From: Bryobacterales bacterium
GTDB taxonomy: Bacteria > Acidobacteriota > Terriglobia > Bryobacterales > Bryobacteraceae
Direction of reading: 5' to 3'
Length of the DNA: 5,995 bases
NCBI GenBank assembly: GCA_003142355.1
Contig: PLMF01000159.1
Span: 5,859-11,853, forward strand
In this document: piece by piece, positions 4,498 to 5,379 of the stretch
Layout: the number at the start of each line of letters is the position of its first letter
Numbering within the stretch: position 1 is the stretch's first letter
Made by a program: the position numbers and the translations under genes
Notes under the pieces: model-generated
What the model saw: the letters and a program-made list of their open reading frames with translations, nothing else
What the model was told of the DNA's origin: nothing
Database searches by the model: none

Positions 4498-5288
4498 TTG
4501 TCTGTCTGCCCGCCATCCTCGGGGCGCAAGACCCGCGCGAAATCGTGCGGCGCTCCGTCGAGATTGACCGCAAGAACCTCGAAATCGCGCGCAACTACAC
4601 CTATCTCGAGCGCCGTGAGGACCGCGAACTGGACGGCTCCGGCAAGGTCAAGAACACTGCGGTTCAAACCTCGGATGTAACTTTGCTGGAGGGGTCGTCC
4701 TACCGCCGCCTGGTGGCGCGCAACGACCGGCCGCTTTCGTCCAGGGAGCAGCAGAGAGAGGAAGACAAGCTGCGCAAAAGCATCGAGGAGCGGCGCAAGG
4801 AATCCAAAGAGGAGCGCGCGCGCCGGATTGCGGATTGGGAGCGCAGGAGGCAGCGCCAACGCGAACCCCTGAAAGAACTGCCCGATGCATTCGATTTCCG
4901 GCTGGCCGGGGAGGAAGCGCTCGCGAGCGGCGAGGTTTACGTGATCGACGCCATGCCCAAGCCTGGTTACAAACCGCAAACGCTATCGGCGGCGTACTTC
5001 CCCAAGGTGAAGGCGCGGCTGTGGATCGATAAGGACGACTACCACTGGGCAAAGGTAGAGATGGAAACCCTGGACACGATTTCCTTCGGCGGGTTCCTGG
5101 TACGGCTCGCGAAGGGCACCCGTCTGATCGTCGAGCAGGCGCGCGTCAACCAGGAGGTCTGGCTGCTGAAAAGCCTGACGCTCCAGGCATCGGCGCGGGT
5201 TGCGCTGATCATGAGCGTTCGCAGGGAAATCATCGTCACGCTCAGCGACTACAAGAAGTTCCAGGTGGATTCGCGGGTGGTTGAGTAG
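4479..5288 (+). CDS. Secreted charged protein of unknown function, possible LolA-like fold
   Basis: I assign a GTG start at 4479, inside the end of purA. It gives an immediate signal peptide (MRFLTLIVCLPAILGA, cut before QDP) and has GAGAAG at 4465-4470, 8 bases upstream. An earlier in-frame ATG at 4293 would add 62 residues that are only a shifted reading of purA, without a leader. The mature protein starts with a helical stretch (REIVRRSVEIDRKN). It then has a very charged Glu/Arg/Lys segment at about residues 85-130, likely a long helix or coiled coil, and a beta-rich C-terminal half with YFPKVKARLWIDKDDYHWAKVE and repeated hydrophobic strands. That half recalls LolA-type or outer-membrane lipoprotein-sorting folds, but this is inference; no family is recognised and no lipobox Cys follows the signal. 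The final Glu codon and the stop TAG lie inside the left arm of the inverted repeat, so the natural C-terminus may once have been longer. Confidence 0.82.
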   Translation: MRFLTLIVCLPAILGAQDPREIVRRSVEIDRKNLEIARNYTYLERREDRELDGSGKVKNTAVQTSDVTLLEGSSYRRLVARNDRPLSSREQQREEDKLRKSIEERRKESKEERARRIADWERRRQRQREPLKELPDAFDFRLAGEEALASGEVYVIDAMPKPGYKPQTLSAAYFPKVKARLWIDKDDYHWAKVEMETLDTISFGGFLVRLAKGTRLIVEQARVNQEVWLLKSLTLQASARVALIMSVRREIIVTLSDYKKFQVDSRVVE

Positions 5289-5379
5289 AAAAGGGGTCAG
5301 ACGCATTTTCCTTTCTGCTTGCCGGCTGCGGATATGATGGAGGGTTGACGGAAAATGCGTCTGACCCCTTTTCTACTCA
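5282..5379. repeat. 98-bp element with perfect 30-bp inverted arms (MITE- or REP-like)
   Basis: The left arm (5282-5311, containing AAAAGGGGTCAGACGCATTT) is an exact inverted copy of the right arm (5350-5379, containing AAATGCGTCTGACCCCTTTT), separated by a 38-base loop. A perfect match of 30 bases is far beyond chance and suggests recent origin. The arms contain the stop codon of the upstream gene and the start codon of the downstream one; the loop holds GGAGGG and a TATGAT. The GGGGTCAGACGC core resembles, from memory, inverted repeats that accompany REP-associated (RAYT, IS200-like) transposases in many bacteria, so a non-autonomous mobile element is the leading reading. No transposase gene is in the window and no target-site duplication is clear. 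In RNA it would form a very stable hairpin that could also act on transcription end or translation. Confidence 0.93.
5339..5344 (+). promoter_or_regulatory. Ribosome binding site of the AddB-like gene, in the loop of the inverted repeat
   Basis: GGAGGG lies 10 bases before the ATG at 5355 and supports that start. It sits in the single-stranded loop if the repeat folds, while the ATG itself is buried in the stem. TATGAT at 5333-5338, directly upstream, resembles a -10 box but has no matching -35 and is too close to be useful for this ribosome site. Confidence 0.6.

Follow-up and report, generated by a model that had tools for sequence, protein, structure and literature searches.

An Inverted Dispersed Repeat as the Predicted Start of addB at a Bryobacterales Gene Junction

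Organization of the Locus

The window, i.e., the whole stretch of 5995 nt analyzed here, contained purA, a gene encoding a protein with weak similarity to LolA, and the 5′ part of addB (Table 1), together with an amino-acid permease gene and one ORF for which the Pfam search returned no match. The protein encoded directly upstream of addB, which had 1521 homologs (C-termini were compared in 120 listed ones), is putatively secreted, as labelled in the initial annotation. The gene limits given there agreed with the ORFs of the window and with the nearest related locus, L001 (MAG fen_178, Bryobacterales), which had an identity of 90% over AddB residues 2–213. The window was accordingly placed in a Bryobacterales-like acidobacterium. 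In L001, addB was followed by a UvrD-helicase/PD-(D/E)XK nuclease gene, which is hence addA-like.

Table 1. Genes and repeat elements of the window around the addB junction.
Feature	Position	Strand	Evidence
purA (adenylosuccinate synthetase), upstream neighbour	3163–4497	+	Pfam PF00709, E = 4e-177
Upstream protein gene, weak LolA_like, end ...VDSRVVE TAG	4479–5288	+	PF17131, E = 0.0014, below cut-off
Left arm of the perfect inverted repeat	5282–5311	+	Inverted-repeat search
TGAGTAG, outer 7 nt of the left arm, with the final codon and TAG stop (5286–5288)	5282–5288	+	Taken as gene-derived
Left-hand core of the dispersed repeat, AAAAGGGGTCAGACGCATTTTCC	5289–5311	+	Core searches in relatives
Loop with TATGAT (5333–5338, promoter-like by eye) and GGAGGG (5339–5344)	5312–5349	+	
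Right inverted core copy, including the addB ATG (5355–5357)	5350–5372	+	
CTACTCA, exact complement of the upstream gene end; addB codons 7–8 and first base of codon 9	5373–5379	+	
addB, 5′ part, leaving the window; N-terminus MRLTPFLLTGSGKT	5355–5995	+	PF21445 ADDB_N, E = 4.6e-8, and relatives

A second inverted repeat (678–701/744–767; 24 nt, 88% complementary, 42 nt apart) was located 3′ of the first ORF and is perhaps a terminator or a member of another repeat family.

Perfect Inverted Repeat at the Gene Junction

The longest inverted pair in the window was formed by the left arm and positions 5350–5379, 30 nt each, 100% complementary and separated by 38 nt; according to our own estimate, the chance of a perfect 30-bp pair lying so close within 6 kb is about 1e-13. 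The listing of inverted pairs bore out the perfect arms and the 38-base loop reported in the initial annotation. The left arm was composed of TGAGTAG (the last base of GTT, then GAG and TAG) and the core, and the right arm of the inverted core and CTACTCA, and the coordinates likewise agreed with the earlier statements that GAG TAG, the end of the upstream gene, lies in the left arm, that the right arm contains the ATG and the first eight AddB-like codons, and that a putative ribosome site, GGAGGG, lies in the loop. This ATG is the first in-frame start of addB, with an in-frame TGA at 5346–5348. The outer 7 bp (TGAGTAG/CTACTCA) lay outside the repeat family as known from relatives, CTAC following the core in one of 120 copies (in G230), where the nearest of the relatives providing these copies was 86% identical to the repeat-start AddB P0168 and the others had at most 71%, and the window lineage might have a longer repeat.

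The DNA strand of the doublet gave a fold of −36 kcal/mol (z = −11), the left and right arms taken singly gave −4.3 (z = −3.3) and −0.8 kcal/mol (z = −0.2), and the two inverted units of the window folded into one hairpin, as in REPINs. The fold of the RNA (−80.1 vs. −49.5 kcal/mol for shuffles, z = −7.1) placed the addB start in the stem and the upstream stop in the opposite arm, whereas the RNA without the left arm was no better than shuffles (z = −0.04), with GGAGGG still paired and the ATG in a loop. More tentatively, this anatomy suggests translational coupling: the stem would hide the addB start on read-through transcripts, and ribosomes terminating at the left-arm TAG would open it. One part of the coupling idea was given up, as the fold without the left arm spoke against it. 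A simple consensus scan revealed neither a sigma-70-like promoter nor an intrinsic terminator, and a comparison of the 98 bp with a plasmid collection gave no match. A sub-threshold Rfam hit to mir-BART20 (31.1 bits vs. 70) was taken as a chance match of a long hairpin.

Repeat Family and Associated Transposases

The core, AAAAGGGGWCAGACGCATTTTC, recurs as a dispersed repeat in Bryobacterales. With one mismatch at most, AAAAGGGGWCAGACG gave 87 matches in 15 of the 16 relatives vs. 13 for the reversed control; 39 of these matches belonged to G012 alone, and genomes with one or two matches could be chance. The exact 17-mer ATGCGTCTGWCCCCTTT was present in 134 copies in 22 of the 237 family genomes, and its reversed control in none. 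These searches supported the mobile-looking character noted in the initial annotation insofar as the core is dispersed and does not occur at this junction only.

All 16 relatives had Y1_Tnp matches, 62 in total, whereas 5 of the 14 control genomes gave a match. The flanks of three of the 62, chosen for nearby repeat matches, were inspected. The gene in G012 (C259) had four tandem copies per side in inverted orientation, the cores being exact except for one left copy with one mismatch; that in G008 (C214) had exact cores inverted on both sides, and that in G015 (C113) had diverged inverted cores with two and one mismatches. The three flanked proteins matched NF047646 (REP-associated tyrosine transposase) with 77.4, 80.4 and 71.9 bits (cut-off 80), and Pfam assigned them to Y1_Tnp alone. 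The RAYT-associated type, previously proposed from the core, is thus supported by cores inverted around Y1 transposase genes at three loci in relatives. At L071, four tandem 22-nt copies per side (1022–1102/1896–1976) surrounded a single transposase gene in inverted orientation, and G012 contained further small repeat arrays.

Among 120 copies, 57 had a partner in inverted orientation no more than 75 nt to the 5′ side, 8 were in tandem only and 55 were in neither form, these being raw counts in which both members of a doublet were included. The loops of the doublets in relatives had very different lengths, and the tandem arrays consisted of 22-nt units. The motif GGGGWSAS was found as GGGGTCAG in both arms and as GGGGWCAG in relatives; GTAG was not a fixed neighbour of the unit (1 of 120 copies), and in the window it arises from the stop codon. 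The repeat of the window fits, by its motif and arrangement, the GGGGWSAS (TIRYT) type in a REPIN-like form and is probably mobile. A variant core, AAAAAGGGGACAGACCCCTTTTCC, was observed at L163 (G124:C515) just 5′ of a gene resembling biotin carboxylase by eye.

The Junction in Related Genomes

In L001, the upstream protein ended in ...VDSRVVSTAQ followed by TAG, a 41-nt spacer and the ATG of AddB (MLLVTGPAGSGKTAFVVDRF), the native AddB start of this nearest relative being MLLVTGPAGSGKT. In the window, the upstream end was ...VDSRVVE TAG, and AddB opened with MRLTPFLLTGSGKTAFVMDRF. Judging by this comparison, the window has lost the native sequence from the start codon to the first residues of the P-loop, and the repeat stands in its place (GPAGSGKT to TGSGKT). 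The core with up to five mismatches was absent from all 16 loci of the relatives between approximately 500 nt before and 100 nt past the start of the AddB match. L001 provided an orthologous junction lacking the element, and the repeat was not conserved at the junction in these 16 relatives.

The upstream gene of L001 finished with CAG TAG, the proteins of some relatives ended in VVQ or VVE, and CTAC followed the core in 1 of the 120 copies; therefore, the TAG stop is probably native and not borne by the repeat. The suggestion that the repeat rewrites both gene ends thus stands for the start, replaced relative to the junction of L001, and most likely not for the stop. The idea of a portable cassette of stop, ribosome site and start was not upheld, as the stop is likely native and the loops, together with any ribosome site, varied in length and sequence among copies; the generally portable part is the predicted start alone (ATGCGTCTG, M-R-L-S/T-P-F). 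In the right arm, the last 7 nt of the upstream gene appear to have been copied in reverse; inverted copying is hinted at chiefly by this feature.

At several of the loci L002–L015, a TTCGCCTGCGCTACACTGGAGCC-like stretch recurred just before the addB ATG; by eye, it is a candidate promoter for a nearly leaderless addB transcript.

The relative P0010 of the upstream protein ended in SKKGTDAFSFPLTGRPSYL, and others showed KKFQVDSRVVSAQ at this point. Since KKGTDAFS is the would-be translation of AAAAAGGGGACAGACGCATTTTC, the same repeat family seems, in this protein-level reading, to have hit the upstream gene of P0010 at another point. The contigs of P0047, an upstream-protein relative ending in VVSTER, and of P0166, an AddB with a repeat start, are equal in length (5308) and may be one and the same.

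Recurrence among AddB Relatives

A search for AddB relatives gave 722 matches, and the 120 listed ones were examined for the type of start. A repeat-encoded start was found in 12 of the 120, 11 of which opened with MR[LQ][ST][PS][FL], while the twelfth, P0176, used another frame (LTENASVPFS; the corresponding other frame of the window reads LTENASDPFS). None of 18 further AddB relatives had a repeat start. The borders in other species were read from proteins; a second repeat-start junction in DNA was not seen across the 237 family genomes with AddB P0168 as the query, for which G001 was the best match (86%), the other listed genomes having full matches of at most 71% and some partial ones up to 76%; a search within the genus gave G001 alone. 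The border motif TG[SA]G[KN] was kept in 11 of the 13 repeat-start rows; the border deviated in P0166, which has TGKT, in P0174, which has an additional PFL, and in P0176, which lacks the P-loop.

Phylogenetic analysis was performed on AddB without its N-terminus. The careful tree of 45 rows, 12 of them with the repeat, required 8 changes (8–9 in bootstrap), 4 of which were forced by starred branches, and none of the 200 bootstrap trees had a single change (0%). Of the 59 database rows, 15 were not used in it, namely, near copies, outgroups, rows that were long or partial, and P0143 and P0124; one of these 15, P0161, was a repeat row. These rows were retained in the quick tree of 60 rows, 13 of them with the repeat, which required 10 changes, 7 forced by starred branches, and which contained some long rows and an outgroup that was not clean. 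Label shuffles gave values as low in 24 of 500 (45-row tree) and 34 of 500 cases (60-row tree), i.e., the label was mildly clustered. According to the AU test, a single clade of the 12 repeat rows was rejected (p = 0.0029), as was that of the 11 rows without the short window row (p = 2.4e-6), whereas a clade of the five rows P0155 and P0167–P0170 was not rejected (p = 0.087). Over approximately 62 residues beside the border, the window was closest to the non-repeat row P0143 (97%), with repeat rows at 95% or less, and for most of the other rows, the nearest repeat and non-repeat rows tied or a non-repeat row was slightly nearer. The repeat-start rows were scattered over the AddB tree, and these protein comparisons suggest that the start was replaced on several occasions in related species.

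Effect on AddB

Of 108 non-repeat rows, 106 had the Walker A motif GxxxxGK[ST], and the remaining two carried R instead of K; among the 13 repeat rows, the window included, none had the motif. The shorter GxGK[ST] remained in 10 of the 13 repeat-start rows, and P0169 had lost the lysine as well. The N-terminal domain of AddB has been characterized as a helicase that is inactivated but has an ATP site influencing the stability of the Chi complex; in the AddAB enzyme studied, AddB mutations expected to block ATP binding lowered this stability without measurably affecting the efficiency of Chi recognition, as far as the cited part of that work goes (PMC4824097). By analogy with this description, the damage to the P-loop is plausibly tolerated by AddB.

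The Repeat ATG in Other Genes

After dereplication by 60 nt, an ORF of at least 60 aa opened at the repeat ATG in 45 of 123 distinct copies. The Pfam search of 20 of the 45 ORFs gave matches for 9, namely, HypF, secretin, DUF4147, acyltransferase 3, RlmA-like, PHP, MtaB with GGDEF, MazE-like and TNT. In six of the nine, no in-frame start was located upstream; HypF had an upstream GTG, and the secretin and DUF4147 genes had an upstream ATG. At L167, the ATG was six codons upstream, and at L124, the GTG was thirteen codons upstream. The HypF ortholog in G015 (87%) aligned well from about the repeat border only, a pattern in line with a replaced start, and its upstream DNA, when compared for the origin of the loop, aligned poorly. 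In gckA (L223, L269), the ATGA stop–start overlap of relatives is still present in G144; therefore, the repeat in this DUF4147 gene may have been inserted in frame without creating a new start. Several other Pfam-matched ORFs with partial domains may be remnants. On the whole, the repeat ATG recurs as a candidate start, predicted in every case.

At L269 (G144:C126, DUF4147) and L167 (G144:C434, secretin), the repeat was in frame right after an apparent native ATGA overlap and would thus be an N-terminal insertion in both proteins. At L237 and L236 (G216), TAA immediately preceded the repeat ATG (GATAAATGCGTCTG) of the RlmA-like and acyltransferase genes, with no in-frame start upstream.

Origin of the Junction

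It was concluded, with slightly better than even confidence, that the element is a non-autonomous doublet of the RAYT/TIRYT type whose right copy is the predicted start of addB, formed by insertion and subsequent inverted copying of an arm. A repeat copy would first have inserted directly behind the upstream gene's TAG; an inverted copy of this left arm and of 7 bp of the gene end would later have been placed over the addB start, possibly by template switching within the hairpin, which would give the perfect 30-bp palindrome. The 7-bp extension, which matches the end of the upstream gene and is absent from the family (1 of 120 copies), was counted in favor of inverted copying, and homogenization of arms by template switching, also recurrent, is reported for yeast in the cited part of PMC8604942. 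L001 has no left arm, and the left-arm-first order was not seen in this locus. A broader reading, put forward tentatively and as possible rather than probable, is that of a mutational hot spot at which inverted copying of a repeat beside the upstream stop codon has independently and repeatedly rewritten the addB start, deleting part of the ATP loop in parallel in several species.

Transposition of the whole 98-bp doublet (REPIN) as a unit, loop included, which would have deleted the native spacer and the first codons at the junction, would agree with the variable-loop doublets of the family (57 of 120 copies with an inverted partner within 75 nt 5′) and with the resemblance of the window loop to two G124 doublet loops (L161 reversed, z = 4.6; L162, z = 3.9). 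The last codons of the loop are possibly common to P0176 as well, whose LT sits two codons into the loop, which hints that P0176 shares the window loop. The loop was also similar to the addB spacers of relatives (L001, z = 3.2; L014, z = 4.6); the similarity to L001 had p = 0.015 against the spacer alone and 0.13 against its 60-nt upstream stretch. The control loops L161 reversed and L172 reversed, however, scored higher on average (2.4 vs. 1.7; 12 spacers, 24 loop orientations), so that the similarity to the spacers is not specific. The outer 7-bp match is foreign to the family (1 of 120), and a similar deletion would be required in several lineages, with TG[SA]G[KN] at the border in 11 of 13 rows, so that transposition of the entire doublet is considered unlikely, albeit far from negligible.

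A single old insertion followed by losses in many lineages, or homologous recombination that carried the junction from species to species, would explain the border common to most repeat-start rows, the mild clustering of the label and the non-rejected clade of P0155 and P0167–P0170. Each loss, however, must restore the P-loop exactly, a single clade of all repeat rows was rejected, and the border region of the window had 97% identity with the non-repeat P0143 and no more than 95% with repeat rows; we regard this origin as improbable. Many N-terminal REPs may in fact be extragenic owing to mis-annotated starts, as argued in the cited part of Di Nocera 2013 (PMC3733652), and the repeat could likewise be an ordinary one 5′ of addB, the true start lying downstream and the frame through the arm being open by accident. 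The next Met of the window is, however, residue 18, past TGSGKTAFV, and 10 of the 13 repeat-start rows retain GxGK[ST], which makes an accidental open frame quite improbable. Insertion with subsequent inverted copying remains the explanation moderately favored here.

Comparison with Known Systems

In most accounts, short RAYT-type repeats are extragenic. In the present case, the start of a conserved repair gene appears to derive from a repeat in several lineages, with the same functional motif lost each time. Such a comparative set bears on how repeats turn coding, on whether inverted copying within hairpins drives parallel change of bacterial proteins, and on the role of the AddB ATP site; if the hot-spot reading is true, these lineages would be natural tests of the need for that site. 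In the literature searched (titles and opening lines of abstracts of the papers listed first, mostly outside subscription journals), repeated replacement of the start of one gene by a repeat, with loss of an ATP site, was not found.

The TIR repeats of TIRYTs share with the present family the motif GGGG[AT][CG]A[CG] and the inverted flanks of Y1 transposases (Di Nocera 2013, PMC3733652), and the likeness extends to the moderate copy number, dimers and clusters, and a sharply defined acidobacterial group of transposases; the matching TIRYT group is likely subclass 2.1 in PMC6006769. The account in PMC3733652, in the parts cited here, deals with repeats and transposases and not with repeated replacement of the start of one gene, and these parts do not mention Solibacter. 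REPINs have in common with the doublet of the window two inverted conserved ends, a less conserved spacer, a single hairpin and the link to RAYTs (Bertels and Rainey 2011, PMC3116915); in the cited part of that work, they are described as random in extragenic space, whereas here the single unit is weakly self-complementary and mobility is putative. GTAG REPs, the ends of which often provide a TAG stop, are known from N-termini and from repair genes, recBCD among them, with REPs at about the same recB site in two Xanthomonas species (PMC3733652); in contrast, GTAG is not fixed in the present family (1 of 120 copies), and a repeat takes the place of a native start. Rickettsia palindromic elements and other bacterial MITE fusions are small mobile repeats read in frame as part of host proteins, some of them N-terminally, but recurrent replacement of the start of the same gene is not among the features described in the cited parts of PMC2229807 and PMC3733652. 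As far as these sources extend, related repeats in gene ends and repair genes have already been published, and recurrent replacement of the start of one gene with loss of its ATP site was not found in them.
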